The position numbers and the translations under genes were made by a program. The notes beneath the pieces were generated by a model. The model had not been told where the DNA came from. It worked only from the letters and a program-made list of their open reading frames with translations, and ran no database searches. Below, in pieces: positions 8,880 through 23,893 of a stretch of DNA of 64,000 bases (position 1 is its first letter; each line of letters begins with the position of its first letter). Source of the stretch: Arcobacter ellisii (lineage in GTDB: Bacteria; Campylobacterota; Campylobacteria; Campylobacterales; Arcobacteraceae). The stretch covers positions 2,232,001 to 2,296,000 of the forward strand of contig NZ_CP032097.1 in NCBI RefSeq assembly GCF_003544915.1. The letters are read 5' to 3'.

Positions 8880-10604
8880 TCATCTCAATTTTTCATTTCG
8901 CTTTTTCCTATATTCACTTTTTTTCTCAATTTCACTAGAATAAACAACACTGTTTTCATAAATCTCTTCACAAACCCAAATCGCTTCTTTAGTACTCAAA
9001 TTTAATTCCTTTTGTAAAAAATCTATTACATTTTTTGGTTTTTGTTTATTTTTTAAGTTATCTATTTTATTATCATCTGTTATTGTAAAATTAGAAATAT
9101 CAAGTTTAAAATTCTTTTTTGCATATTCAAGGATTAAATTTGCATCAAGTTTTTCTTTTAGTTCTTGTAAATTTATTTTAGAATTAAGTTCTTCATTTTG
9201 TAATTTTACTTTTTCTTGTTGAGTTGGTGATTTTGCTCTTAAAATTTCTATATCAGTATTTTTAATTTGTTCTTTTTTATTTTTTAAAATTAAAGCAGCA
9301 ATTTGTCTATTTGCTTCATTTATAAAATTCTCATTTCCTGTTGGTTCTATATTTTCTAATTTCCAATTTTTTGCAAGGGCTATTTCAATCATAATTCTTA
9401 CTTCTTCTTGTAGGTTATTTGAATTAGAGTTAGAGATAATTTGATTTTCTAAATCAATAATTTTGATATTTTTTGAGAAGTTGTTAATGATTATTTGATT
9501 ATCTACTTTTTTTATATAATACCCTTGTAATTTGTCTTTAATTAGATAATCATAGTGTTCATAAAAAAGTTTTTGTTGATATGATTGGTAAGTAAGGGAG
9601 TTTATATTTTTTTTAATATTTTGATTTTCTAAGTGATGGATATTTTTTAATAGTTCTTTTGATTTATTTGATTTTCTTTTATAGATATTTTCAATTCTAG
9701 TTTCATAATAGCTTAGTAAAATATCTTCAAGTTCTTTTTTTGATTTATGTCTTGGAAAGGTTCTATTTTTATCATTTTTTAAAATAAATCTTGAAAAATC
9801 TTTTCCATTTAGATTCAAAGAGTTTGATTTTTTATTTCTTTCTTGTAAATTTAATATTTTTATATATTTATAGGTTTTACTTCCAGCTATTTTAAAATCT
9901 CTGTTTTCTTCTAATTTTAAATCATTTTGTAAAAAGTATAATAGTTCATTTGAAGTTTTTATATCTTTTAAAAGTTCTATCCAATTAGCTCTTGTAATTG
10001 CTATTTTACTTTTTATTTTATCTTCTAAATTATTTTCATCTTCAATCTTTTCATTAGTATCAGTTTCATCTTTTCTAGGAATTTCAAAGCCATATTTTTT
10101 ACAAACATAACTTTGTAAAACATCATCTAAAAAAGAGTTATTAAAAAATGGTGTTTTTAATTGAGTATCATCAAGTGGATTATATTTTGCAATAGCAATA
10201 TGAATATGAGGGAATCTTTGTCTGTTTTTTTCATTTATTTGAATTTTTGGAAGATGGGCTTCACTGTAAGCTATTACTTCATTTTTTAAATCATATCCAC
10301 TTGTGTGATGTTTAATATATATAAGAACTAACTCTTTAAAAAGTTCATCTCTAATTTTTTCATCTTCTATTTCATTTAATTTATCCATTTCCTCTTGTGA
10401 GAATGATAGGGTTATGTGAATATAATTACTTTCATAGTTTTTATATTTATTTAGATATTTTTCTGTTTGTTTAAAAATTTGAAGATTTCCATATAGTGTA
10501 ATGGTTCTATCTTTTTGATCTCTTGTATAAATACTATCTTTTCTAGTACCTGTTATTAAATAATCTGCAAATCCTTCTTTAGCTCTTGAAATTCTTACTA
10601 TCAT
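8880..10604 (-). CDS. Mobilization relaxase (HUH-type)
   Basis: 574 residues. Seen: an N-terminal part with YIHITLSFSQEEM near residue 61 and the metal-binding RFPHIHIAIAKYNP segment near 149-162, the two-His motif of HUH relaxases. Tyr9-16 region candidates such as DYLITG may supply the nicking Tyr. The remaining two thirds is Lys/Asn-rich and helical without a recognisable helicase or primase. It would nick oriT and pilot the strand into a conjugation channel supplied by another element. A MobC-like gene ends directly before it, giving the usual mobC-mobA pair. No coupling protein or type IV secretion genes are present, so the element is mobilizable and not self-transmissible. Confidence 0.8.
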   Translation of the reverse strand: MIVRISRAKEGFADYLITGTRKDSIYTRDQKDRTITLYGNLQIFKQTEKYLNKYKNYESNYIHITLSFSQEEMDKLNEIEDEKIRDELFKELVLIYIKHHTSGYDLKNEVIAYSEAHLPKIQINEKNRQRFPHIHIAIAKYNPLDDTQLKTPFFNNSFLDDVLQSYVCKKYGFEIPRKDETDTNEKIEDENNLEDKIKSKIAITRANWIELLKDIKTSNELLYFLQNDLKLEENRDFKIAGSKTYKYIKILNLQERNKKSNSLNLNGKDFSRFILKNDKNRTFPRHKSKKELEDILLSYYETRIENIYKRKSNKSKELLKNIHHLENQNIKKNINSLTYQSYQQKLFYEHYDYLIKDKLQGYYIKKVDNQIIINNFSKNIKIIDLENQIISNSNSNNLQEEVRIMIEIALAKNWKLENIEPTGNENFINEANRQIAALILKNKKEQIKNTDIEILRAKSPTQQEKVKLQNEELNSKINLQELKEKLDANLILEYAKKNFKLDISNFTITDDNKIDNLKNKQKPKNVIDFLQKELNLSTKEAIWVCEEIYENSVVYSSEIEKKSEYRKKRNEKLR

Positions 10605-10934
10605 TTAAAACTCTTTATCTAAAATTGAATCTAATTGATTTTCAATAATGATAAGTTTATTAATTAGATTTTTATAGTTATAAGAATCAAGTTTTTCCAT
10701 TTGGATTGAATAATTTAAACTATGAGCTAATTGATTAATGTTTGTACCAATTTTATTTATATTCCAGATCAACTCTTTTAAATCTTTTTTATTATTTGTT
10801 TTTACATTGATATTTGAAGATTCAATATATTTAATTAAAAACTGAGTACTATTCATATTAAGAGCTTTTGCTTTGGAATTAAGTAATTGTTTTTGTTGTT
10901 GTGATAATCTAAATTTAAACATTTTATTTTGCAT
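10605..10934 (-). CDS. MobC-like relaxosome accessory protein
   Basis: 109 residues from the ATG at 10934, chosen because AAAAGGA lies 6 nt upstream. The 6-codon longer TTG frame has no such site. Seen: an N-terminal MFKFRLSQQQKQLLNSKA stretch like a ribbon-helix-helix DNA-binding fold, then WNINKIGTNINQLAHSLN near residues 62-79, the hallmark pattern of MobC/MbeC-type proteins. These bind oriT and help the relaxase open the strands. It is followed immediately by the relaxase gene with no gap. Confidence 0.8.
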   Translation of the reverse strand: MQNKMFKFRLSQQQKQLLNSKAKALNMNSTQFLIKYIESSNINVKTNNKKDLKELIWNINKIGTNINQLAHSLNYSIQMEKLDSYNYKNLINKLIIIENQLDSILDKEF

Positions 10935-11048
10935 TAAAATCCTTTTATACAAATATTTATTTCATTTAATACATTCACAATTTTTTAATTTTAAAAGTAA
11001 AAGATAAATTTAGTTTTTTTGTTATAATTTTTTAAAAAGGATTATTTT

Positions 11049-11397: not shown

Positions 11398-11501
11398 TAC
11401 CTGCATTTTAGCAAAAAGTTTTTTAGATTTTACAATTGTTTTTTTTTAATTTAGAGCTATATTTTTGGATTAAAATATTAAATTAGATTTGATTTGGGAT
11501 T

Positions 11502-11572
11502 TTTAAGGGAAGATTCCCTTAAAGAACGATGTCATGTGGGAAAACGTAGTGTACCCACAATGGCTGTCGTTC
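11502..11572. other. Strongly structured non-coding element (candidate oriT, origin or small RNA)
   Basis: Three pairings occur close together. TTTAAGGGA (11502-11510) pairs with TCCCTTAAA (11515-11523) round AGAT. GAACGA (11524-11529) pairs with TCGTTC (11567-11572). Inside that, TGTGGG (11535-11540) pairs with CCCACA (11554-11559) around the loop AAAACGTAGTGTA. The block is clearly more GC-rich than its surroundings. The loop contains TAGTGT, which resembles from memory the nick region of pMV158-type oriTs, a weak likeness. It is about 570 bp from mobC and 40 bp from the iterons. Function is inference. Confidence 0.55.
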
Positions 11573-11610
11573 CTATTTTGGTTTTCTTTAAAAGCATAGA
11601 TTTTACTTTA

Positions 11611-11690
11611 TTTGAATATTTTGGAAAAACTTTTCACCTTTTTTGAATAATTTGGAATGTTTTTCACTTTTATTTGAATTAATTTTACTT
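11611..11690. repeat. Three iterons with exact 31-bp spacing
   Basis: TTTGAATA-type units start at 11611, 11642 and 11673. The first two share TTTGAATA, then TTTGGAA, then TTTTCAC in nearly the same phase; the third (TTTGAATTAATTT) is partial and runs into the 3' end of the next gene. Spacing of 31 bp is close to three helical turns, as expected for protein-binding iterons of a plasmid origin or a partition site. A ParA-type gene lies just upstream on the minus strand. The DNA is AT-rich, but the exact periodicity is not expected by chance. Confidence 0.5.
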
Positions 11691-12203
11691 ATTTGTAATA
11701 ACCATAACAAAAGGATGCCCTTCTTTTATATCCCAAATTCTAACATGAACATCAGGAATTATATATTCAATTTTTATATTACCTAAAACATCACCTTCTT
11801 TAAATATTTGTCCTTTATAGATAAAAGTTTTATCTATAAATTGAAATTCATCAAATTTACTTTCAAACTCTTCCATATTTTCAAATCTGATTGAATTATT
11901 TAAAGTTTGAGCTTTTTGTACAGGAATATTTGTTTGTGTAATAGTTTTAGATTCTTTTACAATTGGTGGAGTTAAACCTAAATAAAAAATTGAACAACTA
12001 ATCCAACCTATAAAAAAAGATATAACACCAGATAAAATTAATTTAACAAGGTTATTTTTAGTTTTATTAGAGTTATATATTTGCATTTCATTTTTAATTA
12101 AATCTAATTCAAAAAGTAATCCACTCTCATGTGGATTACCTTTTAAAAGTTTAATTGTATTAACTAAGTCCTTACTTATAATATCTAGTTGATCTTGTGT
12201 CAT
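11685..12203 (-). CDS. Single-pass membrane protein of the mobile element, unknown function
   Basis: 172 residues, not recognised. Seen: a helical N-terminal part (1-50), one membrane span near residues 51-74 (LVKLILSGVISFFIGWISC), a polar linker, and a C-terminal domain of about 70 residues with KTFIYKGQIFKEGDVLGNIKI and a VRIWDIKEGHPFVMVI ending that looks beta-rich and extracytoplasmic. The gene lies 4 bp downstream of the ParA-like ATPase gene, so the two are probably co-transcribed. The C-terminal shape recalls type IV pilus or conjugation accessory proteins, but this is only an impression. Confidence 0.6.
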   Translation of the reverse strand: MTQDQLDIISKDLVNTIKLLKGNPHESGLLFELDLIKNEMQIYNSNKTKNNLVKLILSGVISFFIGWISCSIFYLGLTPPIVKESKTITQTNIPVQKAQTLNNSIRFENMEEFESKFDEFQFIDKTFIYKGQIFKEGDVLGNIKIEYIIPDVHVRIWDIKEGHPFVMVITNK

Positions 12204-12207
12204 TTTT

Positions 12208-12990
12208 TTACTTTAATTTATTAATAATTTTTTCAATACCAGGAAGAATATAATTCTTTTGCAAAAGTAAAGCACTTTTAACAATATTTCTTTTTTTAAT
12301 TAGTTGCATTAATTCATCATCTTGTTCATTTGTAATTTCATCAATCTTTTGATTAATTGCATCAAGATTAGTATCACATAACTCTTTAATTGTAATTGCA
12401 TTTCTTCTTGCATATTTTATAGGAAGTGAATCTTTAATTGCAAAGTAGTTAGATTCATTAGTTAGATCAACTTTATATTTTTTTTGAATAATTTTTGCAT
12501 TATCAAAAAATTGATCAAATTGATTCTGAACACTTGAATATTCATACTCATTAAATCTATTAAAAACAAATATTACTTTATTTTCCAAGTCAACATGATC
12601 TTTGATAGACTCTAAAAAATCCATAGCAACGTTGAAATCATCACTTCCATCCATGCAAGGAATTAAAAATAAGTCTACAAATTGGTATAAATCATTAGTT
12701 ACCATAGATTTATGAAAAGTTGATAGCTTATTGGCACCAACATCAATAATGATATTTTTATCAGATTTTCTTAAAATTCTTTCAAATTTAAAAAACTCAT
12801 CATCAAGTTCTGTTAAAAAATCCATCTGTATTGATTCATAATAATTTTTTGAATTAATTCTTTTATCACTTTGATTGATTGTATCCATCTCAATTAACAT
12901 AGAATTATGTAAATATGATGCAGTTGTTGAAGCTAGAGTTGTTTTCCCACTTCCGCCTTTAAAATTTAAAGCAAGTATATTTTTTGCCAT
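12208..12990 (-). CDS. ParA/MinD-family ATPase
   Basis: 260 residues from the ATG at 12990, preferred because AAAGGA lies 8 nt before it; the upstream ATG at 12999 overlaps that site. Seen: the deviant Walker A motif NFKGGSGKTTLAS near residues 9-21, a Walker A' Asp in LIEMDTINQ near 36-44, and the hydrophobic IIIDVGANKLS strand near 98. Family knowledge: such ATPases partition plasmid or island DNA, or position protein complexes. The C-terminal third is Lys-rich and unlike chromosomal ParA. A helical gene product lies upstream (13022-13426) and iterons downstream, a possible par cassette. Confidence 0.8.
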   Translation of the reverse strand: MAKNILALNFKGGSGKTTLASTTASYLHNSMLIEMDTINQSDKRINSKNYYESIQMDFLTELDDEFFKFERILRKSDKNIIIDVGANKLSTFHKSMVTNDLYQFVDLFLIPCMDGSDDFNVAMDFLESIKDHVDLENKVIFVFNRFNEYEYSSVQNQFDQFFDNAKIIQKKYKVDLTNESNYFAIKDSLPIKYARRNAITIKELCDTNLDAINQKIDEITNEQDDELMQLIKKRNIVKSALLLQKNYILPGIEKIINKLK

Positions 12991-13021
12991 TTTATTCATC
13001 CTTTTTACTTTATTTTTATAA

Positions 13022-13426
13022 TTATTTGAAATCTGATTTATCAGCTCTTTTTAGCTCACCATCATCTTTCAACTCTTTAACCTGTGCCAATTGAACTTGA
13101 CTATTTGAAATATCATTTCTTACTTCACTTTTATCTATTTGATTTTTTGAAGTAATATCTTCTTTTTTAGTATTGATTTTTGAAATCTTTATTTCATTAC
13201 TTTCAATATTTTTTACATACCACTTATAAAAATTGCTGTATTTTACTTTTGTTTCAAAGACAGAATTTATAAGCTCCAATATTTCTACTTTTGTGAGAAA
13301 ATCATCTAAATAAACTAACTCATTTCTAATGAGCTTTAAAAATTTAGTTGATTTTTTTATCTCTTTTAATTCTTTACCAAAAAGAGTTTCTAACTCTTTT
13401 TTACGTTTAAAAAGTAATTCTTCCAT
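13022..13426 (-). CDS. Hypothetical protein upstream of the ParA-like gene, possible DNA-binding partner
   Basis: 134 residues, not recognised. Seen: residues 1-75 are helical and basic with a FLTKVEILELINSVFETKVKYSNFYKWY stretch that could form a helix-turn-helix-like fold (given here as residues 44-71); residues 76-134 are polar and probably disordered. It is the first gene of the three-gene minus-strand unit with the ParA-like ATPase and the membrane protein, which is where a ParB-like or centromere-binding partner is expected. The 134-bp upstream space separates it from the divergent 13561 gene. Confidence 0.45.
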   Translation of the reverse strand: MEELLFKRKKELETLFGKELKEIKKSTKFLKLIRNELVYLDDFLTKVEILELINSVFETKVKYSNFYKWYVKNIESNEIKISKINTKKEDITSKNQIDKSEVRNDISNSQVQLAQVKELKDDGELKRADKSDFK

Positions 13427-13560
13427 TTATACCATCCTACTTCTCCTGGAATTTTTTTAAAGATTTTTTAATCTCATATAGGTATTCACAAAAATTCAAA
13501 AAAAGTAAAAATTAGTGAAATTGTGAATAGAGTAAATACAAATTAAAAAAAGGATGGAAA

Positions 13561-13818
13561 ATGGAAAACCTAGACTGGAAAAAAGCAAGTGATAAATTAG
13601 AAGAAACAATAAAGCAATTTGATTATTTTATTTTTGATATGAAATCGTCACATTTTAAAATGAAAATTGAAATGTTAAAAAACATTTATTTATTTCAAAG
13701 AAATGAATACGAATATATAAAAAGAATAAATGAACTTGAAGAAAAGTTAAATGACAAGAAATTTGAATATCCACCTATTTTAGGATATCCACCTATTATT
13801 GATGCGGAGGTGGAATAA
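13561..13818 (+). CDS. Hypothetical helical protein
   Basis: 85 residues, not recognised. Seen: a mostly helical, Lys/Glu-rich chain with a likely coiled coil near residues 50-67 (YEYIKRINELEEKLNDKKF) and a C-terminal repeat, PPILGYPPII, before the acidic end. An AAAAGGA site lies just 5' of the ATG. Its stop overlaps the next small gene by 1 bp (TAATG), so both are probably translated together. It is divergent from the ParA unit within the mobile element. Confidence 0.5.
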   Translation: MENLDWKKASDKLEETIKQFDYFIFDMKSSHFKMKIEMLKNIYLFQRNEYEYIKRINELEEKLNDKKFEYPPILGYPPIIDAEVE

Positions 13819-14000
13819 TGAAAAAATATGACGCTATTATATTATGTTATGGATCAATTGCTCTAAAACAAAAAATAGAAATAAAAATAAAACAAACAGT
13901 CTATACAAGCTGGATGATTGAAGGCATAGGTACAAAAAAAGAGCTTATAAAGATATATACTAAAAAACAAATAATAGCTATATACAATAGTGGAATATAA
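13818..14000 (+). CDS. Hypothetical basic small protein
   Basis: 60 residues, not recognised. Seen: a short beta-rich chain (YDAIILCYGSIALKQKI, then VYTSWMIEGIG, then Lys-rich TKKELIKIYTKKQIIAIY). It starts on the stop codon of the preceding gene, and GGAGGTGG at about 13806-13813 is a very strong ribosome binding site, which argues that this short gene is genuinely expressed. No function can be offered. Confidence 0.5.
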   Translation: MKKYDAIILCYGSIALKQKIEIKIKQTVYTSWMIEGIGTKKELIKIYTKKQIIAIYNSGI

Positions 14001-14567
14001 TACTATAAAGAGAGAATTTAGGCTAAAAAGGTGTATTTCCAAATAGTCATAGCCTGTTAAAATTGCTGTTTATAGGTAAAAAAATGTAGAAAAAAAATAA
14101 ACAATGCCATTGTGGAATGGGAGATTAACTCTTTCACAACTGGCGATATTTTCAAATAGAGATTAGATAATTATTTAAAGTTGTAGCAAATGGATATTTG
14201 TTACTTTAGGTGACTTGATACAGAATTTCTAACACTTCTTTTTTATAAGCATAAAATATAATCTTATCCCTACAATTTCAACAAATACTTACTTATCAAA
14301 TATAAAAATTATCTATACTTACAAAAAAAGATGAAATATAAAATAATTTAGAAATTTCACACAATATTTCTAGTTTTTCACTTTTATATTCCTATTTTGG
14401 GGAAATTTAAAATTACAATTCTAATTTTTATTTTTCTATTTAATCTACAATATTTTATATATTTTAGATAATTAATCTATTTTTAAATAGTAGTTTATTA
14501 AAAACTATTGACTTAAAAATAGAAAACTGATATTATTCTCTTATAAATTTACATTAGGAGATTAAAT
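14001..14567. other. 567-bp non-coding stretch before the HsdM-HsdS fusion gene
   Basis: No gene above 25 codons is convincing. The left part has an unusually GC-rich patch with a hairpin at 14106-14144: GCCA and TTGTG at its 5' side pair with CACAA and TGGC at its 3' side, with a single-base bulge. The right 250 bp is extremely AT-rich and includes TTGACT and TATTAT-like boxes near 14509 and 14530 that could form the promoter of the fusion gene. An AGGAG site lies 8 nt before the ATG at 14568. Confidence 0.5.
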
Positions 14568-16274
14568 ATGGAAATTTTAAAATTATTGGAAAATTTAGAA
14601 AATCATTCACTTGAAACTATTTATGTTTTGAAAGCATGGAAAAAATTATCAGATGAGAAAAAAATAGATAAAAAATATTCTTTCGAAAATTTTTATAATC
14701 AAGAGATCAATGTAGAAAATTTATTAAATATATTTAATAACTTATCAAAAACAGTTAAACTTTTTAATATTTATAAATTTAATCCAGAAATTTACAATAA
14801 AAAAGATTTAATTGAAATGTTAAATATAGTTAAAAAAGAAACTCTTCCAAATGTAAATGAGATTTTTTATAATTCAAAAACTGACGGATCTTATGTATCG
14901 GACCAAATTGCCGAACTTGGAATAAAATTACTTGATAATAATTTTGAAGAATTATATGTACCTTTTACACATAGCTTTTCATATGCAAATTTTACAAATA
15001 AAAAGATTTATGCTGATTTTTATATGACTAAAGCAGCAATTATTGCTGAACTTATAAATATACTTGAAAATAAAGATATTGAGTTTCATATGACAAATGC
15101 TTTAAAAGAACCAACATTTATAGATAAAAATGCTTCACATCTTTTAAGAAAATTCGATTGTGTATTATCATTTCCTCCAATTAGAGTTATTGAAGAACTT
15201 GATATTTCAAAAGATATTTTTGATAGATTTCATTTTCCAAAGAGTAAAGTTTTAGATATTGCTCACTTTGAACATGTTATTGCACAAACAAAAAATAAAG
15301 CATTAATTTCATTACCTGTTGGATTTACGTATCGAAGTAACAATGAAGAAAACTTTAGAAAAAAATTAATTGAAGAGAATCTATTAGAAACAATTATTAT
15401 TTTACCTAGAAATATATTATTAGGTACACAAACTGAAATGACATTTTTTATAATCAATAAGAATAAACTTGATAATAAAATATATTTTCTTAATCTAAAT
15501 AATGACTCATTTTTGATTAAAAGTGGTAAAAAAACTATATTTAAAGATATAAATGAAATTTGTGATGTTTACAATAATAGAAAAGAGATATCAAACATTT
15601 CAACTATTGTAGAAAAAGAACAAATAATTAATAATAATTACTCATTAGCAATTGATAGATATATACAAGATCCTATTTTTGAAAATATTCAAAATAAATT
15701 AGAAGGATTTGAGCTAATTGCTTTAGAAAAAATTGCCGATGTTAGAAGATCTCAATTATTAAAAGATGAGGAAAAAGGAATAAATGTTTATGAGATTTCA
15801 CCTTCAGATTTTATTTCTAGTAATTTTACTTTGGAATGTGGAAAAATTAAAAAAATTGATAAAAATATCAAAAAACTTGAATTATATAAATTAGAACCTT
15901 ACGATGTTTTACTGAGCACCAAAGGGACTATAGGTGGAGTTGCTATTATAGGAGAAATTAAAGAACCAATGGTAGCTTCTCAAGCTATACAAGTAATTAG
16001 AATAAAAGATACAAATAATAAAAAGAATAAAGCAATTACATTATATATGTTTTTAAAATCTGATTTAGGACAATCAATTTTATCTTCATTAGTTTTTGGA
16101 ACAGTAATGCCACAAATTTCTACTGATGAAATAAAACAATTGAATATTCCTATTTTATCAAAAGAACAAGAATTTAAATTAATAGAAAATTTTGAATTAG
16201 AAAACAGGCTAAATGAAGAGATTAATGAAATAAATAAAAAAATCAAACTAATTCATAGAAATTTTTTAAATTAG
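14568..16274 (+). CDS. HsdM-HsdS-like fusion protein with degenerate methyltransferase motifs
   Basis: 568 residues. Residues about 95-360 follow the type I N6-adenine methyltransferase pattern: FHFPKSK with a following HFEHVIAQ, ALISLPVGFTYRSNNEENFRKK, LLETIIILPRNILLGTQTEMTFFIINK. Residues about 381-568 resemble an HsdS target-recognition half: LEKIADVRRSQ, YDVLLSTKGTIGGVAI, FGTVMPQISTDEIKQLNIPI and a C-terminal coiled coil. Key motifs are altered: the SAM-binding DPxCGSG position reads VPFTHSFS (131-138) and the catalytic NPPF position reads SFPPI (201-205). No HsdR gene is in the window. It may be an inactive DNA-binding or decoy protein of the element. Family placement is good; activity and role are inference. 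Confidence 0.75.
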   Translation: MEILKLLENLENHSLETIYVLKAWKKLSDEKKIDKKYSFENFYNQEINVENLLNIFNNLSKTVKLFNIYKFNPEIYNKKDLIEMLNIVKKETLPNVNEIFYNSKTDGSYVSDQIAELGIKLLDNNFEELYVPFTHSFSYANFTNKKIYADFYMTKAAIIAELINILENKDIEFHMTNALKEPTFIDKNASHLLRKFDCVLSFPPIRVIEELDISKDIFDRFHFPKSKVLDIAHFEHVIAQTKNKALISLPVGFTYRSNNEENFRKKLIEENLLETIIILPRNILLGTQTEMTFFIINKNKLDNKIYFLNLNNDSFLIKSGKKTIFKDINEICDVYNNRKEISNISTIVEKEQIINNNYSLAIDRYIQDPIFENIQNKLEGFELIALEKIADVRRSQLLKDEEKGINVYEISPSDFISSNFTLECGKIKKIDKNIKKLELYKLEPYDVLLSTKGTIGGVAIIGEIKEPMVASQAIQVIRIKDTNNKKNKAITLYMFLKSDLGQSILSSLVFGTVMPQISTDEIKQLNIPILSKEQEFKLIENFELENRLNEEINEINKKIKLIHRNFLN

Positions 16275-16417: not shown

Positions 16418-17101
16418 ATGCTATTTAAAATTACTTTACTTGGTAAAAATTATAACCAAAATAAAAATAAAAATCAATTTTCATTTCTATTTAATTCATT
16501 CACTAGAAATGATTGGATAGAAGAATTAACAAATGTTGATTCAAATTTATACTTCTTGATTAAAGAAGAAGTTGAAGAGTTTTTTTACAATACAGGTGGT
16601 TATTTAACTTATTTAGATTTTGAATCATGTTATCAATTAGCTGTTGAGGCTACAATAAAACAAGTTAAAAAAAGTATCAGAAAAAATAAAAAATGTTTTT
16701 TTGAAATAGAAAATAATGATAATTCATTGATTTACAAGAAGATAAAAGAGAGATTGCTCTCAAATATCAGAAATCTATTTGATAAAAAAAGAAAAATTAA
16801 CGTTCTAAATATTGATTTATTGATAATGGATAATATTTATGAAAGTTATGAAGTAGATACTACTCTATGGGATTTAAGAAAATTAGTTAATACAAATCCT
16901 CAAATAATAATTGACAATATAATCAAACTAGCAAATAGTTTTGAAATTACATTAAGTGAGATTGATGAACTTGGTGAAAAATTAAATATGGATTTTTCTG
17001 CTATCCCTGAATTAAATTTATCTTTAGAATTCAGAAATTTAAAAAAAGCAGCTAATAGTCAGTTATATCTACATTTCAATGAAGAATTAATGGTGGCATA
17101 A
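16418..17101 (+). CDS. Hypothetical protein, possible replication accessory factor
   Basis: 227 residues from the ATG at 16418, which has AAAGGAG 5 nt upstream; a longer TTG frame from 16358 lacks one. Not recognised. Seen: a beta-like N-terminus (LFKITLLGKNY), then an acidic/basic helical body with VEATIKQVKKSIRKNKKCFFEI near 73-94 and ERLLSNIRNLFDKKRKINVLNID near 111-133. Its stop overlaps the helicase start by 1 bp, so the two are coupled. That position recalls helicase loader or initiator genes before replicative helicases, but no family motif proves it. A perfect AAGGAGG at 16297-16303 upstream serves only a possible six-codon frame. Confidence 0.5.
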   Translation: MLFKITLLGKNYNQNKNKNQFSFLFNSFTRNDWIEELTNVDSNLYFLIKEEVEEFFYNTGGYLTYLDFESCYQLAVEATIKQVKKSIRKNKKCFFEIENNDNSLIYKKIKERLLSNIRNLFDKKRKINVLNIDLLIMDNIYESYEVDTTLWDLRKLVNTNPQIIIDNIIKLANSFEITLSEIDELGEKLNMDFSAIPELNLSLEFRNLKKAANSQLYLHFNEELMVA

Positions 17102-18510
17102 TGAGTATAGCAATTAATATCGAGAAAGCTGTATTAAGCTCAATTTTATTCAATCCCGAAGAGTTTGAGAAAATAAATGAGATTCTAAAAGCAGATGATT
17201 TTTTTTCGTCTGCTCATCAAAAGATTTTTGAAGTAATGCAAAAACTTTATGATGAAGAAATGCCTATTGTTGAAGATTTTATTTCAAAAAGATTGAATAA
17301 TTCAAAATTAAATGATGTGTTAATTGATATTTTATCTGCTAATCCTATAACAAATTCTATTGCTTACGCAAAAGAAATAAAAAAAGATAGTTTAACAAGA
17401 CAAATACAACATTTAAGTTCTAAATTACAACATCAATTTGATATTAAAATCATTGATAAAATTTCAGAATTGAAAAATGAACTAGAAAATTTAAAATTTA
17501 TTAAAGAATTAAAAAACATAGATGAAATAAGTTCTTTATTTCAAAAATATGATTTAAATTATTTAGAAGTTGAGAATGTTAAATTTGAGTATTTAATTGA
17601 TAATTTACTTGTAAAAAATGAAATTACTATGATAGTGGCACGTCCTGCAATTGGAAAAAGTTTAACAACGTTTGCTTTTGTTAATATGATTCTTTTAAAT
17701 AGTAAAGTTTCCAAAATAATATATCTTGATGGAGATAATGGGCTTACTACTATAAAAGAGAGAAAAGTTCATATTGTAAAAGAAAATCATGGTGATAAAC
17801 TTATTTATTTACAAGGATTAAAAGCTTCAGAATTTAATATAGTGATTAAAAATTTATTAAAATCAAATTTAGATGATATATTAATAGTTTTTGATTCAAT
17901 TAAAAATTTCATGCAAGGTGGAGATAGAGACAAAAACAGAGATGTTTCTAAGGTTATGGAAATTTTAAAAACACTTAGAAACAATGGTGCGACTGTTATT
18001 TTTCTACACCATTCTAATAAACCATCAAAAGATATTGATGAATTGATGTATGCGGGATCTAGTGCTTGGGAAGAAGATTCCACAAATGCTTTTATTCTAA
18101 AGAATAATAAAGATAAAAAAGCATTTATCTTTATACCAATAAAAATGAGATCTGGAGATTTAAAAGAGATGGCATTTACATATTGTGAATATTCACATAC
18201 TCTAAATCAAATTGATTTAGATATAGCAAAAGAGACAAATGAAGAACTAGAAATAAGAAATGAAATCATTGATTTTATTTCAAATTCAAAAGAAGAGCCT
18301 AATTATAGTGAAATTCTAAATCACTTGATGAATAATGGATATCCAAAAATGAAAAGTACTGATGTACTAAAAAATGGTAAAGACAAATTTTGGGAATCAA
18401 AAAAATTGAAGCAATTTAATAAAACTATATTTTTATTAATAGATCAAAATAAAGATTTCAATAAACCAATCAAAATTGTTTTTGAAAATGAAGTACGTAA
18501 AGTAAGTTAG
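17101..18510 (+). CDS. DnaB/RepA-like hexameric helicase
   Basis: 469 residues. Seen: an N-terminal DnaB-type domain (IEKAVLSSILFNPEEF near 7-22 and AHQKIFEVMQKLYDEE near 37-52), then a RecA-like core with Walker A MIVARPAIGKSLT near residues 177-189, YLDGDNGLTTIKERK near 208-222, Walker B ILIVFDSIKNF near 260-270, and the HHSNKP motif near 302. The core is closer to plasmid RepA/AAA_25 ATPases than to chromosomal DnaB. It would unwind the element's DNA during replication or transfer. It overlaps the preceding gene by 1 bp. Confidence 0.8.
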   Translation: MSIAINIEKAVLSSILFNPEEFEKINEILKADDFFSSAHQKIFEVMQKLYDEEMPIVEDFISKRLNNSKLNDVLIDILSANPITNSIAYAKEIKKDSLTRQIQHLSSKLQHQFDIKIIDKISELKNELENLKFIKELKNIDEISSLFQKYDLNYLEVENVKFEYLIDNLLVKNEITMIVARPAIGKSLTTFAFVNMILLNSKVSKIIYLDGDNGLTTIKERKVHIVKENHGDKLIYLQGLKASEFNIVIKNLLKSNLDDILIVFDSIKNFMQGGDRDKNRDVSKVMEILKTLRNNGATVIFLHHSNKPSKDIDELMYAGSSAWEEDSTNAFILKNNKDKKAFIFIPIKMRSGDLKEMAFTYCEYSHTLNQIDLDIAKETNEELEIRNEIIDFISNSKEEPNYSEILNHLMNNGYPKMKSTDVLKNGKDKFWESKKLKQFNKTIFLLIDQNKDFNKPIKIVFENEVRKVS

Positions 18511-18977: not shown

Positions 18978-20204
18978 TTACACTAAATTATTCAACCAAT
19001 CTGCCCACCATTGCATAAGTTTTCTTTTTTCTTCTATATATTTATATTTTGATTCTCTATTATAAGCTGCTTTTACCCTGTTTGGCTCTGAATGAGCGAG
19101 ACAAGATTCTATGATATCACTATGTAAATGATGTTTAGCTACATTTTCATATGCATTTGTTGAAAACATAGCTCTAAATCCATGATTTGTATGTTTGTTC
19201 TTATATCCCATTTTATGAAGAGCATCATTTATTGTATTTCCACTAATACTTTTGGTATTTGTTGTAGGAGATGGAAAAACAAATTTTGAGGATTTAAATT
19301 TTTCGATTTCTTTTAATAATTCAAAAGCTTGATTAGATAAAGGTAAAACAAAATCTATAGACATTTTCATTTTATCTTTTGAAATTTCGATTGTTTTTGA
19401 TTCAAAATTAATTTCACTCCATTCTAAAGAAGTAAGATTAAATGGTCTTAAAGCAAGATAAGGAGCGAGTTTTAAAGCATATATAGTGCATATGTCACTT
19501 TTAAATTCATCACTATAACTATTTATATCTTCAAGCAACTTTTTTATATCTTCTTTTTTTGTAAGAGCAGGAAGATTTTTTGTTTTGCGCTTTTTTAGTG
19601 AGTTTTGCTTATCAATGTCAGATATTATATTTCGTTCTACATATTCATTTGTAATTGCATACTTATAGATTCTTTGAATATTATTTAAAAGTCTTGATGC
19701 ATATTCTATTGCATCACGATTCTCCATACTTTCAACTAAAGCTAAAATATCTTTTCTATTAATATCTTTAATATCCCTCTGACCTATAAAAGGATAGGCG
19801 TTTTTTTCTAAATTTCCTCTTATTTTTTCATAATTTGATTTACTCCAACTATCTTTCATTAAAGCTAACCATTTTTCACTTATTTGTTTAAAATTTACAG
19901 TAACTTCAAAATTTGATGATTTTGAGTCAATTGGATTTATTCCTCTTTCAATATTTTTTCTTGCCTTTTCTCTCTTTTGTCTTGCTTCTTTTAAACTGAC
20001 TTCATCATAAATTCCAAAACTCATACTCTTTCTTTTACCTAAAAAAGTAAAATCAAATCTCCACATTTTTGTTCTACAGGATTTTATGACTATATACAAT
20101 CCTCGACCATCACTTAATTTATAATCCTTTTCTTTATATTTAGCTGTTCTAATTTTTACATCACTGAGAGGCATAGAAATTTTTGGCATTTTATAATTAC
20201 TCAC
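18978..20204 (-). CDS. P4-type tyrosine integrase (copy 1)
   Basis: 408 residues. Seen: an N-terminal DUF4102 arm-binding domain (PLSDVKIRTAKYKEKDYKLSDGRGLYI near 12-38), a central core-binding part, and a C-terminal catalytic domain with Arg253 (ALRPFNL), His341 and Arg344 (HGFRAMFST), His371 (CLAHSEP) and the nucleophile Tyr381 (AAYNRES). All catalytic residues are present. It would insert and excise the element at a tRNA or tmRNA gene. It is clearly paralogous to the second integrase at 26644-27855, sharing for example DKMKMS and QWWADWL. No tRNA adjoins this copy. Upstream, TAACTG words near 20300 and 20380 might be arm sites; this is weak. Confidence 0.92.
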   Translation of the reverse strand: MSNYKMPKISMPLSDVKIRTAKYKEKDYKLSDGRGLYIVIKSCRTKMWRFDFTFLGKRKSMSFGIYDEVSLKEARQKREKARKNIERGINPIDSKSSNFEVTVNFKQISEKWLALMKDSWSKSNYEKIRGNLEKNAYPFIGQRDIKDINRKDILALVESMENRDAIEYASRLLNNIQRIYKYAITNEYVERNIISDIDKQNSLKKRKTKNLPALTKKEDIKKLLEDINSYSDEFKSDICTIYALKLAPYLALRPFNLTSLEWSEINFESKTIEISKDKMKMSIDFVLPLSNQAFELLKEIEKFKSSKFVFPSPTTNTKSISGNTINDALHKMGYKNKHTNHGFRAMFSTNAYENVAKHHLHSDIIESCLAHSEPNRVKAAYNRESKYKYIEEKRKLMQWWADWLNNLV

Positions 20205-20400: not shown

Positions 20401-21399
20401 CTATTTATTTATTCCTAATCTTTTCATTCTATCTTTATAGCTTTCTATATAAAACTCTTTTGCTTCTTGGCTTAAAAATGATTTATTGATTAGTTCTTCA
20501 ACTTTTGGATAAGAATCTTCTATAAATCTCATAATTTTATTAAATCTAATTTCTGGTAAATCTATATATTTTGCAAAGGTTTTAAAATCATCATATGTGT
20601 AATATCCATATTTTTCATAAGTAGGTGTATAATCATCCAATAAATCTAGTGCCATGTCACCATATTTTTCATTTACATGAAATCTTGTATTTAGTAAATC
20701 ATAATTTGGAGTTAGAAAATATTCATTTGAATTTGGTTTACTATATAGTGAGAAGTTTTTTAGATGAGCATCACCATTACAAATTAGATAATTTAAAATT
20801 ATTCTTTTAAAAAAGTCTTCAATTGAAACCATACTTGTTGCAATATATTTTTTTATCATTCTTGCACAATCAAGATAACTACAAGCATCATATTTATAAT
20901 TCTCACCATGGGTAAAAGCAGATACTTCTAAAACTCCTGCAAAATCTTCTTGATCATATTTTATTCCTGTTTCATCATAATCAAATCTTTTAGTAATATA
21001 TGCAAGTTCTTTATCACTAAACTGAATTAATCCACAAGTTGCTGTTGGAATATTAAAAATATTTTTTGAAATAAGCATAGAGATATGTTCATTTGCAACA
21101 ATATCTTTTTCATTTTGGATATGTCCATCTCCACTTGTTATTGGTTTTAAAATATATTTTCCATTAGTTACAGTTGGAACTAAATCTTTTTTTTCAAAAA
21201 TTAAGGAGATTTTATCTTGAACTCCAGAAATTGACATTCTAGAAGATAATTCAGCTCTTTTTTTAGTAAATTCAACCCTATCAAAATTTAGTGGATTTGG
21301 AGTAATTCCATCAAAAAGTTCTTTTATACATTTAGAACAATAGTTATTAGTTAATTTTTTATTAGTTGCTAAACAACCTAAACAAGTATCATTTTGCAT
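20401..21399 (-). CDS. hipT: HipT-like serine/threonine kinase toxin (split HipA, C-terminal part)
   Basis: 332 residues, the size of HipT and shorter than HipA (about 440). Seen: an N-terminal four-Cys pattern (C6-x2-C9 and C21-x2-C24), the SIS phosphorylation motif at 56-58 in RMSISGVQDKISL, a YILKP lysine at 85, the catalytic NGDAHLKNF (N208, D210, N215) and the metal-binding PNYD at 231-234. Family knowledge: in E. coli HipBST, HipT phosphorylates tryptophanyl-tRNA synthetase and its SxS serines control activity. The gene follows a HipS-like and a HipB-like gene with spacing of 2 bp and a 1-bp overlap, the exact HipBST order. The target here is inferred. Confidence 0.85.
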   Translation of the reverse strand: MQNDTCLGCLATNKKLTNNYCSKCIKELFDGITPNPLNFDRVEFTKKRAELSSRMSISGVQDKISLIFEKKDLVPTVTNGKYILKPITSGDGHIQNEKDIVANEHISMLISKNIFNIPTATCGLIQFSDKELAYITKRFDYDETGIKYDQEDFAGVLEVSAFTHGENYKYDACSYLDCARMIKKYIATSMVSIEDFFKRIILNYLICNGDAHLKNFSLYSKPNSNEYFLTPNYDLLNTRFHVNEKYGDMALDLLDDYTPTYEKYGYYTYDDFKTFAKYIDLPEIRFNKIMRFIEDSYPKVEELINKSFLSQEAKEFYIESYKDRMKRLGINK

Positions 21400-21401
21400 A
21401 T

Positions 21402-21728
21402 TTATATCTCATCTTTTTCTATTGTAATTGAACCAATAGTATTCTCTTTTGTAGTAAGAATTAATCTTGAAAAATCATCATTTTTATCAATCCTAAGTTC
21501 ATGACATTGGATATCTTTCAATTTACCTTCAGCTAATAAATTATAAAAAAAAGGAAATAGATGATTTGATTTAAATTCATCCTCTTGTAATGGTAGTGTT
21601 AAACTAATAGATTTTATATTTGGTAGCTTTAAATACTCTTTATCATAAACAAAACTATATTCACTTTCACTAAACTTGCTAAGTAATCCAGCAAATATAT
21701 TGTTTCTAAAAACTTTAGCTCTTTGCAT
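21402..21728 (-). CDS. hipS: HipS-like protein (split HipA N-terminal subdomain)
   Basis: 108 residues. Seen: RAKVFRNNIFAGLLSKFSESEYSFVYDKEYL and SISLTLPLQEDEFKSNHLFPFFYNLLAEG, the pattern of the N-subdomain 1 of HipA (couple_hipA), ending in an ITTKENTIGSITIE strand. The chain stops where HipA would continue into the kinase. Family knowledge: in the tripartite HipBST system this small protein neutralises HipT, unlike HipB in the two-gene systems. It overlaps the Xre gene by 1 bp and stops 2 bp before hipT, so the three are one unit. Confidence 0.82.
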   Translation of the reverse strand: MQRAKVFRNNIFAGLLSKFSESEYSFVYDKEYLKLPNIKSISLTLPLQEDEFKSNHLFPFFYNLLAEGKLKDIQCHELRIDKNDDFSRLILTTKENTIGSITIEKDEI

Positions 21729-21940
21729 TATTTACTCACAACTTCAATATTTATTTCCATTCCAAGTACATCTAAAAGCTTTTCAAGAGTTTTAATTGTT
21801 GGATTTGCTTTTCCATTTTCAATATCTGAAATAGAAGCATAATTTATACCTGAATAATCTTGTAAATCTTTTAACTCAAGATTTAACTCTTTTCTTCTTT
21901 TTTTTATGATTTTTCCTATCTTATTAACCGTTGGTTCCAT
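21728..21940 (-). CDS. hipB: HipB-like Xre-family regulator of the hipBST operon
   Basis: 70 residues. Seen: a helix-turn-helix of the Xre/Cro type, IKKRRKELNLELKDLQDYSG with SISDIENGKANPTIKTLEKLL after it, and a short C-terminal EINIEVVSK strand. It is the first gene of the three-gene unit. Family knowledge: HipB of HipBST binds DNA and augments HipS, and represses the operon. Three 22-bp palindromes upstream (21964-22104) are the likely operators. Confidence 0.85.
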   Translation of the reverse strand: MEPTVNKIGKIIKKRRKELNLELKDLQDYSGINYASISDIENGKANPTIKTLEKLLDVLGMEINIEVVSK

Positions 21941-21963
21941 TTTTACTCTTTTATTAATACATT

Positions 21964-22104
21964 TATTTAGTATATAAGTTAAATATGACTAATTATATAA
22001 GTATTAAAATTAATATTTACTTTACATTTAGTTTATATACTAAATATAGTCTAATTATTATGAAATTTATAAAGTGTCTTAGTATTTAGTATATAAATTA
22101 AATA
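21964..22104. promoter_or_regulatory. Three 22-bp operator palindromes upstream of hipBST
   Basis: Units at 21964-21985, 22025-22046 (opposite orientation) and 22083-22104 share the core TTTAGTATATAA followed by (A/G)(C/T)TAAAT, an imperfect palindrome TTTAGT-6 bp-ACTAAA. Centres are about 61 and 58 bp apart. The DNA is otherwise unstructured and directly precedes hipB. A repeated palindrome in front of an Xre-type gene is the classic autoregulatory layout. Binding by this HipB is inferred. Confidence 0.7.
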
Positions 22105-22233
22105 AGTTTTTGTTTATTTGTTCAAGTGCAAGATTTAAAAAGTTTGAAAAGTTGATAAATCATTAAATGAATTTAAGCCCATTCAGCTAAGAATATTTAA
22201 ACTCTTAACCTAACGAACGCATTGAAAATATTA

Positions 22234-22611
22234 TTATTCAAACACATTTGGAATATAGACATCCGTATCATTTTTTTGTTTATCGTTACTAGATTTTGTA
22301 TCTTTCTTTTCCAGTGTCGTTTTCTTTACATCTCTTTTTTTATGAAAAAAATCTTCATCTTTTTTATTTAATAGTTTTTGTATATCTTCTAATACTTCTA
22401 GTCCTCTTAAAACATCAATGAATTTTTCTAAAGTTATCTTTCCACTTATTTCAAATTCTTGATATCTCCTACTAGTCATTCCTATATGTTTTGCAAAATC
22501 TTTTTGACTACCAAAATATTCTATTTCTCTTTTTCTTTTTTCTTTTGCTCTTTTGCCCAACTCTTTTAATATCTCTTCTGTTGTTGCTAGGCTGAAATCT
22601 AGTTCTGCCAT
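22234..22611 (-). CDS. Xre-family antitoxin partner of the second HipA
   Basis: 125 residues. Seen: a helix-turn-helix near residues 25-60 (EYFGSQKDFAKHIGMTSRRYQEFEISG, then ITLEKFIDVLRGLEVLE), followed by a Lys/Asp-rich disordered tail from about 85. It starts 1 bp after the end of the HipA gene, so toxin precedes antitoxin, the reverse of hipBST next to it. Probably the antitoxin/repressor of the pair; the disordered tail is a usual antitoxin feature, but which part neutralises the kinase is unknown. Confidence 0.75.
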   Translation of the reverse strand: MAELDFSLATTEEILKELGKRAKEKRKREIEYFGSQKDFAKHIGMTSRRYQEFEISGKITLEKFIDVLRGLEVLEDIQKLLNKKDEDFFHKKRDVKKTTLEKKDTKSSNDKQKNDTDVYIPNVFE

Positions 22612-22612
22612 T

Positions 22613-23893
22613 TTAAACTCCTTTAGTTAAAAGCTCATCTACAGCTTTTGTATCTTCGAGTATATGTTTTGCAAAACTTTCTGGCATATTATATTCTGAA
22701 AATATTTTAACTAATTGACTATGCTTTAAATCTATCATTTTTTTAATGTTCTCTTTTAAAAAAGACTCAGTAATATTAAAAGGTTTAAGGACTTCGTATA
22801 GTTTATTGTATGATATTCTATTTAGAACATTAACACCTACATACATCTGATGATAGCCATTACTTGCATATGTTAAATCATAGGCAGGAGCAAAAGCCCA
22901 TTTTCCAATATGATTCATAAGAAATGAGAAATTAGCTGCATGGTCATCCTTATTTCCAAATATTGCATTAAATAGCATTAGTTTTACAATTTGTTCTATT
23001 TGTGAACTTGATATGTTTAATTTATTGGCACATCTTAAAAGATCAATATAATCATTTGTTGTATCTGCTGGATCAATATGCATTAGACCAGCAAATGAGT
23101 GCATATGAAATCTTTGATTTTTTATTCTATCAAATCTATAAGTTAAGAAGTGAATATGTCCTTCACATTCTAGTAGTTGGCACTCACTCATTGTTATATC
23201 TAATTGTTTAGTAAATAAGTAGTATATATATTCTAGTTTCGTTGGTATAGACGCATCTTTATATTTATTATCTAACATAGGATACATAGAAATATCTTTA
23301 TCATCATATTTTATTATTACAGGTAAATATCCCTCTGGAAATTCATCTTGTTTTCGTAATAGACTAATAGTGTTATCTTTTTTATTAAAACCAACAGTTG
23401 CTTTTGCTCTAGCTCCACCACCTGCAGAATTTGAAATGGCAATTAATGTTTTTAAAGCTGCTTGAGCATTGTTAAGTTCTTTATTCTCTTTATCTAATAA
23501 ATTTTTAGATTCTTTATATAAATTAGAAATGCTTAGAATGTTTTTATACTCATCTGTATCATATTCTGAAGGATGAAACTCTAAAGCACCAATAGTGTGA
23601 GTTCCTAAAAATTTTAGTCTTTCAAGTATAGTAGGCTTTCTTTTTAAATGTTCAAATAAAAATCTATCCATGTATTCCATACCATATCTACCTGGTAAAT
23701 TATCACTTATAAGACCAGGTAGACCATATTGATATTTAATATGACTGAAATTTTGTACGCTTCTATTTCCTATTCGCATTTTAATAGGAGAAAATTCTAA
23801 AATATTCTCATCTGAATATTTAAATAAAATAGAACCTTTTTTATTATCAACAAGCTGTGCTACTTCTTTATCCCATGCTTTTACAATTACCAT
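22613..23893 (-). CDS. hipA: HipA-family kinase toxin, full length
   Basis: 426 residues, standard HipA length. Seen: an N-terminal couple_hipA-like part with YGLPGLISDNLPGRYGMEYMD and THTIGALEF, a GGGARAKATVGF segment at 158-169 in the Gly-rich loop position, VIIKYD at 192-197, the catalytic FGNKDDHAANF (about N314-N321) and the PAYD metal-binding residue at 336-339. Family knowledge: HipA kinases phosphorylate aminoacyl-tRNA synthetases and trigger growth arrest. The N-terminal part is unlike classical HipA and closer to YjjJ/HipA-like kinases, so the target is unknown. Its partner gene follows 1 bp later. Confidence 0.85.
   Translation of the reverse strand: MVIVKAWDKEVAQLVDNKKGSILFKYSDENILEFSPIKMRIGNRSVQNFSHIKYQYGLPGLISDNLPGRYGMEYMDRFLFEHLKRKPTILERLKFLGTHTIGALEFHPSEYDTDEYKNILSISNLYKESKNLLDKENKELNNAQAALKTLIAISNSAGGGARAKATVGFNKKDNTISLLRKQDEFPEGYLPVIIKYDDKDISMYPMLDNKYKDASIPTKLEYIYYLFTKQLDITMSECQLLECEGHIHFLTYRFDRIKNQRFHMHSFAGLMHIDPADTTNDYIDLLRCANKLNISSSQIEQIVKLMLFNAIFGNKDDHAANFSFLMNHIGKWAFAPAYDLTYASNGYHQMYVGVNVLNRISYNKLYEVLKPFNITESFLKENIKKMIDLKHSQLVKIFSEYNMPESFAKHILEDTKAVDELLTKGV

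Follow-up and report, generated by a model that had tools for sequence, protein, structure and literature searches.

What remains for a DNA methyltransferase to do when its catalytic motifs have been lost and its gene is nevertheless kept intact? The question is raised by a gene in the 64,000-nucleotide stretch of Arcobacter ellisii DNA analysed here (the window; contig NZ_CP032097.1, positions 2,232,001 to 2,296,000), which encodes a type I methyltransferase subunit (HsdM) fused to half of a specificity subunit (HsdS). An earlier note, made from the sequence alone, took the protein for one that recognises a DNA site without methylating it, and that might act on host type I restriction-modification (RM) systems as an inhibitor or decoy, or regulate the mobile element carrying it. 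We propose, with a probability of roughly 0.7, that the dead fusion forms a homodimer which binds the interrupted palindrome AGT-N9-ACT and autoregulates its own operon, as a controller of type I RM. The computed evidence that bears on this proposal comprises the motif losses and their conservation, purifying selection in relatives, the placement and recurrence of the sites, and linkage to RM genes.

The fusion protein

The gene and its two degenerate motifs are placed as follows.

14568..16274, + strand: HsdM/half-HsdS fusion gene, 568 aa, catalytically dead (open reading frame, Pfam, predicted structure, alignment)
14958..14981, + strand: degenerate motif I, VPFTHSFS, codons 131-138 (open reading frame, alignment)
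15168..15182, + strand: degenerate motif IV, SFPPI, codons 201-205 (open reading frame, alignment)

The frame is indeed intact, being open throughout its 568 codons. Residues 166-368 match the Pfam family N6_Mtase (5.6e-27), and since this match begins at profile position 102, the motif I part of the fusion is left unmatched. Type I methyltransferase and specificity subunit models match the two parts of the protein (PADLOC). Structure prediction, built on an alignment of 8 sequences, gave a best model of five with mean pLDDT 79.3 and pTM 0.67 (58.9 for the weakest model), in which residues 1-366 resemble HsdM (7vru_A, Z 25.6, rmsd 3.4, 351 aligned residues) and residues 372-568 resemble half of HsdS (8vsq_A, Z 19.2, rmsd 2.9, 190 aligned). 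The fusion has this single half, whereas type I HsdS contains two target-recognition domains.

That motifs I and IV are broken was confirmed by alignment to canonical HsdM, in which VPFTHSFS and SFPPI fall in the columns of DPxCGSG and NPPF. Comparison with HsdM structures, proposed in the earlier note as a check, placed the predicted folds in their usual order, with no motif seen relocated elsewhere. Within the 568 aa, Pfam returned no helix-turn-helix family of the kind present in RM controller (C) proteins. It is probable, as had been supposed, that the window fusion recognises DNA without methylating it.

Conservation of the motif losses

Homologues, sought in whole genomes, plasmids and named genome contigs, were found in 5 of 104 genomes of the family and in 132 of 398 genomes of the order, the latter count at a loose threshold which includes ordinary HsdM. 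Named genome contigs gave seven loci; L056, L059 and L060 are the same loci as G277, G073 and G323. The records G453, L024 and L052 were dropped, as they were taken to be the same plasmid as NC_014756 (equal record length, identical fusion protein), and L066 (a split gene) and L065 (ordinary HsdM) were left uncounted. A pattern-based search with the single protein detected no relatives in genome contigs and one weak relative in viral contigs; an alignment-based search of viral contigs detected none, and phage records contained partial matches only, none spanning 80% of the fusion protein.

Among the homologues, loss of the motifs proved to be a family trait. In alignment, NPP[FY] is kept in none of 24 fusions, as against all 11 HsdM proteins of the same operons; the motif IV asparagine is replaced by phenylalanine in 18 of the 24, and the Salimicrobium sequence reads NFPF. 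In 20 of the 24, the window copy included, motif I is destroyed; four Firmicutes members retain part of it (e.g. DATAGTAG). In a tree of the methyltransferase region, a branch (100/99) sets the 20 fusions of Gram-negative bacteria and cyanobacteria apart from the rest; the four Firmicutes fusions fall near HsdM and may be of separate origin. A distinct clade of HsdM/half-HsdS fusions occurs in the same order (L029, L030, L033, L034, L041), in which NPP[LMV] is retained along with an almost complete motif I.

The supposition that selection keeps the gene is supported for the family. Among three relatives, G323, G349 and L062, whole-gene dN/dS values are 0.128, 0.105 and 0.109 (Nei-Gojobori) and those of the pseudo-enzyme core are 0.08-0.09, indicating purifying selection at a ratio of about 0.1, although the values are rough because dS is high (0.70-1.65 over whole genes).

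Genomic neighbourhood

In agreement with the reading of the region as a mobile element, the fusion is surrounded by genes for mobilisation, partition-type, replication and integration proteins:

8880..10604, - strand: proposed relaxase of the carrier element, adjoining the NikA/MobC-like gene; no Pfam match
10605..10952, - strand: NikA/MobC-like mobilisation protein
12208..12999, - strand: ParA-like ATPase, weak (Pfam match just under the cutoff)
17101..18510, + strand: DnaB-N / AAA_25 protein, probably for replication of the element
18978..20204, - strand: tyrosine integrase of the element

The proposed relaxase has an 83% identical homologue in G010, where a related element shows 85% DNA identity to the window in two blocks, 8895-10983 and 11461-14001, beyond which the DNA does not match. 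No fusion was found in the G010 genome at E 1e-25. As this related element is without the fusion and the DNA match stops before it, the window gene is probably solo cargo on an integrated mobilisable element. At the integrase end of the element, HipA-like genes lie at 20401-23893, one recognised by Pfam and the second by reading; an Aliivibrio fusion (L010, plasmid pCG103-32) likewise adjoins annotated HipA genes.

The remark that no HsdR is nearby holds for the window; it does not hold for many relatives, which lie in type I clusters. Gene names there come from reading translations, with HsdM checked by alignment and HsdS by BLAST, and HsdR named from reading alone. Among 14 close loci, ten are in or beside type I RM clusters with hsdM (G012, G073, G091, G277, G323, G349, G279, L058, L062 and Sulfuricurvum kujiense pSULKU03; in G073 and G277 the contig ends within hsdM). 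Three look solo, namely the window, G032 and L061, the last on a contig of 7 kb, and the L057 sequence stops before its neighbourhood can be read. At most loci the fusion is the first gene of the cluster, and in G091 it stands at the far end. Many relatives thus occupy the place of a C protein at the head of an RM operon, which the solo window copy does not. HsdR-like genes are present in several fusion-bearing clusters, and none lies close by in the window or the G032 stretch. Of ten more diverged loci, five are clearly beside a type I cluster (L012, L013, L014, L015, L063).

In L019 and L020, the fusions of G032 and G091 seemingly occupy one and the same region of the chromosome, to judge from a reading of the similar flanking genes; the G091 region has a full type I cluster and the G032 region none. 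A small gene stands between promoter and fusion in L017, L008, L055, L013 and L015, annotated as DUF4258 in the last two. A helix-turn-helix regulator gene precedes the fusion in L062 (6948-7829) and L051 (705-1592), which suggests a second layer of control; the helix-turn-helix genes upstream of the fusion in G277 and L062 we take to be of the WYL type.

Promoter sites at close loci

Directly upstream of the window fusion, a motif scan revealed a candidate operator adjoining a promoter:

14492..14506, no strand: proposed operator AGTTTATTAAAAACT (AGT-N9-ACT)
14508..14513, + strand: -35 box TTGACT, 1 nt after the operator
14531..14536, + strand: -10 box TATTAT, after a 17-nt spacer

AGT-N9-ACT occurs within 450 nt upstream of the fusion in all 14 close loci. 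At 12 of them TTGAC follows 1-2 nt past the palindrome, and then come a 17-nt spacer and a T-initial hexamer; a second copy of the palindrome lies 48-60 nt past the first in ten of these 12. The window and L058 have one linked copy, and L057 and L058 each have an additional copy that overlaps the spacer. The two loci with no adjoining TTGAC are G032, with two palindromes 71 nt apart, and G091, with three, one of them 63 nt ahead of the start codon. Across 20 distinct sites the nine inner bases vary, AGT and ACT being fixed by the selection rule.

The motif was defined from the upstream DNA of six loci. At the eight inspected afterwards (G277, G323, G349, G279, L057, L058, L061, L062), it was found at TTGAC in all eight and with a second site in seven. 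Because the promoters of close loci share descent, the loci count as only partly independent. The palindrome is kept in the window, G073, G323 and G349, where the small gene is absent and there is no room for it, which leaves the fusion as the constant partner of the site.

Nine loci (G349 was omitted as a near twin of G323) were compared with 300 dinucleotide shuffles. Mere presence of AGT-N9-ACT in 9/9 is not significant, some motif having reached it in 117 of the 300, and the case is therefore carried by pairing and by the place at -35. Paired sites occur in seven of the nine loci, more than for every other half-and-gap motif scanned; in the shuffles, the top-scoring motif attained five paired loci on one occasion and never seven. 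Across the 398 genomes of the order, the extended pattern AGTN9ACTACTTGACA gave 11 exact matches, spread over nine genomes, and its reversed control gave equally many. Fusion promoters account for six of these matches, distributed over five genomes, and at every one a second site follows at 58-60 nt; the remaining matches, five in number, have no second site within 110 nt. The five fusion promoters were known beforehand, and the scan thus demonstrates exclusiveness of the pattern rather than its discovery; the fusion genomes G000, G091 and G453 carry another form of the pattern, unmatched in it. None of 22 control loci gave a match, a result of little weight because the pattern is rare by chance and the flanks are short.

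By itself AGT-N9-ACT is not clearly enriched in the window (22 sites against 16.5 expected; 10 of 100 shuffles had as many), and only its promoter placement counts. Being common, such chromosomal sites could titrate the fusion protein. A wider regulon was considered and rejected: the motif plus -35 box is found at 3 places in the whole genome, one of them the fusion promoter, against 10 for the reversed control.

Palindromes of diverged relatives

The ten diverged loci were tested against 150 shuffles each. Three have a repeated palindrome that only 0-1 of 150 shuffles equalled: ACTAT-N3-ATAGT in L009, TAGTAT-N5-ATACTA in L014 and AGTAAT-N3-ATTACT in L063, each present twice. L015 has one long palindrome (1/150), its two apparent copies being the arms of that palindrome, and GTAC-N3-GTAC, present twice in L013, is borderline (8/150). 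Repeats in L010, L012, L016 and L064 were no better than those of the shuffles, and the best repeat of L011 (10/150 as good) differs from its proposed site; AGTA-N5-TACT is, by eye, common to L011 and L016. The sites of L014 and L063 also fit AGT-N9-ACT, and L064 has one such site upstream. These three are Firmicutes fusions that keep part of motif I, and the palindrome may have arisen there by convergence.

Specificity of the fusion and of neighbouring HsdS

The C-terminal halves of the fusions of G323, G349 and L062 are 75-94% identical, whereas by BLAST the HsdS proteins of G323 and G349 share 42% identity and the other pairs are not significantly similar. Conservation of the fusion half beside differing HsdS indicates that the site read by the fusion is most likely a fixed one and not the RM target. 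The contrast is weaker between G012 and L062 (67% for the fusion half, 39% for HsdS) and absent between L058 and S. kujiense (37% and 33%); across the close loci compared, fusion halves are 34%-94% identical. Three of 11 fusions match the HsdS of their own operon at E 0.01, with 25-28% identity.

Discussion

From these observations we infer dimerisation, binding, repression and a role on the element. By analogy with homodimeric gamma-methyltransferases, two fusion molecules would pair with their identical target-recognition domains facing opposite ways, and such a dimer would bind AGT-N9-ACT near -45. The second site, where present, would lie just downstream of the start, so that two sites would flank a near-consensus promoter. 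The bound dimer would most likely block RNA polymerase, and by this means the fusion would keep down its own production and also, in those relatives where it heads a type I RM operon, expression of that operon. Binding at the upstream site may, instead, activate. Of the functions suggested in the earlier note, that of a regulator fits best, but the evidence points to the promoter of the fusion itself as the target, together with a type I RM operon in the case of relatives.

Several known systems offer parallels. The homodimeric gamma-methyltransferases M.AhdI, M.DrdI and M.XmnI act on interrupted palindromes as dimers whose subunits are oppositely oriented, and dimers of truncated half-HsdS bind such sites too (PMC3874165). 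Half-sites of type I enzymes are 5-9 bp apart (PMC12707154), in keeping with the N9 and N5 spacings at fusion promoters. Like the homodimeric gamma-methyltransferases, the fusion would be associated with interrupted palindromes, its recognition of them being putative; those enzymes are active, whereas the fusion has lost motifs I and IV and has its site at its own promoter. The gene of a C protein heads an RM operon, as the fusion gene does in many relatives; C proteins bind their own RM promoter (PMC12707154; PMC5282649), and the fusion has a candidate site at its own promoter. C proteins are, however, small helix-turn-helix proteins, described as similar to regulators of the lambda cI kind (PMC12255303), while the fusion has 568 aa and no such Pfam family.

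HsdC of Mycoplasma gallisepticum acts on a type I operon (PMC12707154; PMC5282649), and RptR is a repressor of its own type I RM promoter, where it uses short palindromes present in repeated copies (PMC12255303). RptR is described as compact, with one domain made of four helices and a site of 6 bp, and the fusion differs from it in size and domains. Ecl18kI and similar type II methyltransferases repress their own gene (PMC3874152); they are working enzymes that bind through an N-terminal helix-turn-helix domain, unlike the fusion. Since DNA binding by HsdC, RptR and the self-repressing type II methyltransferases relies on parts of other kinds, the fusion would represent a new form of such control. 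An HsdM-HsdS fusion of EcoKI was made by removing a frameshift (PMC3510504) and, like the window protein, unites both subunits in one chain; it derives from mutagenesis of a working system and has a complete HsdS, compared with the half HsdS of the window fusion.

To our knowledge, few transcriptional controllers of type I RM have been described. Among the titles and opening lines of abstracts searched, with few subscription journals represented, no description was found of a dead HsdM-HsdS fusion as a regulator. If correct, our proposal would provide a type I RM controller that occurs in several phyla and reads DNA with a type I recognition domain, and it would show a modification enzyme losing catalysis and becoming a switch. 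Recognition domains are modular, and regulators of this kind could therefore be redirected to other sites.

Other functions have to be weighed against autoregulation. A poison subunit, which joins host HsdM, HsdS and HsdR or occupies their sites and so blocks restriction, would account for retention of the HsdM and half-HsdS folds and for carriage on a mobile element. We consider the inhibitor or decoy of the earlier note unlikely, since the family resides mostly within type I clusters (in or beside them at ten of 14 close loci), a setting in which a poison subunit would be hard to understand, since its recognition half is only distantly similar to that of the neighbouring HsdS, as the three weak matches among 11 illustrate, and since the matching site at its own promoter would be left unexplained. 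It is quite improbable that another protein binds the palindromes, the fusion doing something else. Candidates would be a host factor or the small or helix-turn-helix genes seen at several loci, such as those just upstream in G277 and L062; yet the sites are also kept at loci too tight to hold the small gene, and a general host factor would not restrict the second-site pattern to fusion promoters in 398 genomes.

The fusion could also be a working methyltransferase with unusual motifs, for which AGT-N9-ACT would be the substrate and the promoter sites methylation-sensitive switches. The site does resemble a type I target, the fold is intact and motif I is partly preserved in four Firmicutes members, but with asparagine changed to phenylalanine in 18 fusions, NPP[FY] absent from all 24 and motif I destroyed in 20, we regard this as very improbable. 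Least probable of all would be a targeting subunit bringing HsdR to AGT-N9-ACT without methylation. HsdR-like genes do occur in several of the same clusters; against this, none is close by in the window or the G032 stretch, and the complex would cut its own chromosome, in which the window count of AGT-N9-ACT shows no avoidance.

Apart from autoregulation of its own operon, we see a rather unlikely further use of the fusion: solo copies on elements that enter a cell might repress, in trans, a type I RM operon headed there by a related fusion with AGT-N9-ACT, which would be anti-restriction borrowing the RM system's own operator code. A type I operon with AGT-N9-ACT exists in the same genus, in G012, where the C-terminal half of the fusion is 60% identical to that of the window. 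The resident type I operon of the host has no AGT-N9-ACT just upstream of hsdM, which makes trans-repression of that operon unlikely; six sites elsewhere in the 15-kb resident type I stretch are at chance expectation. As a variant, the fusion might serve as bait, with DNA-mimic anti-restriction proteins (Ocr, ArdA) attacking it, freeing the operator and raising RM expression. Ocr and ArdA bind type I methyltransferases, and complexes of the Ocr/ArdA type are among the structure matches of the predicted fusion model.
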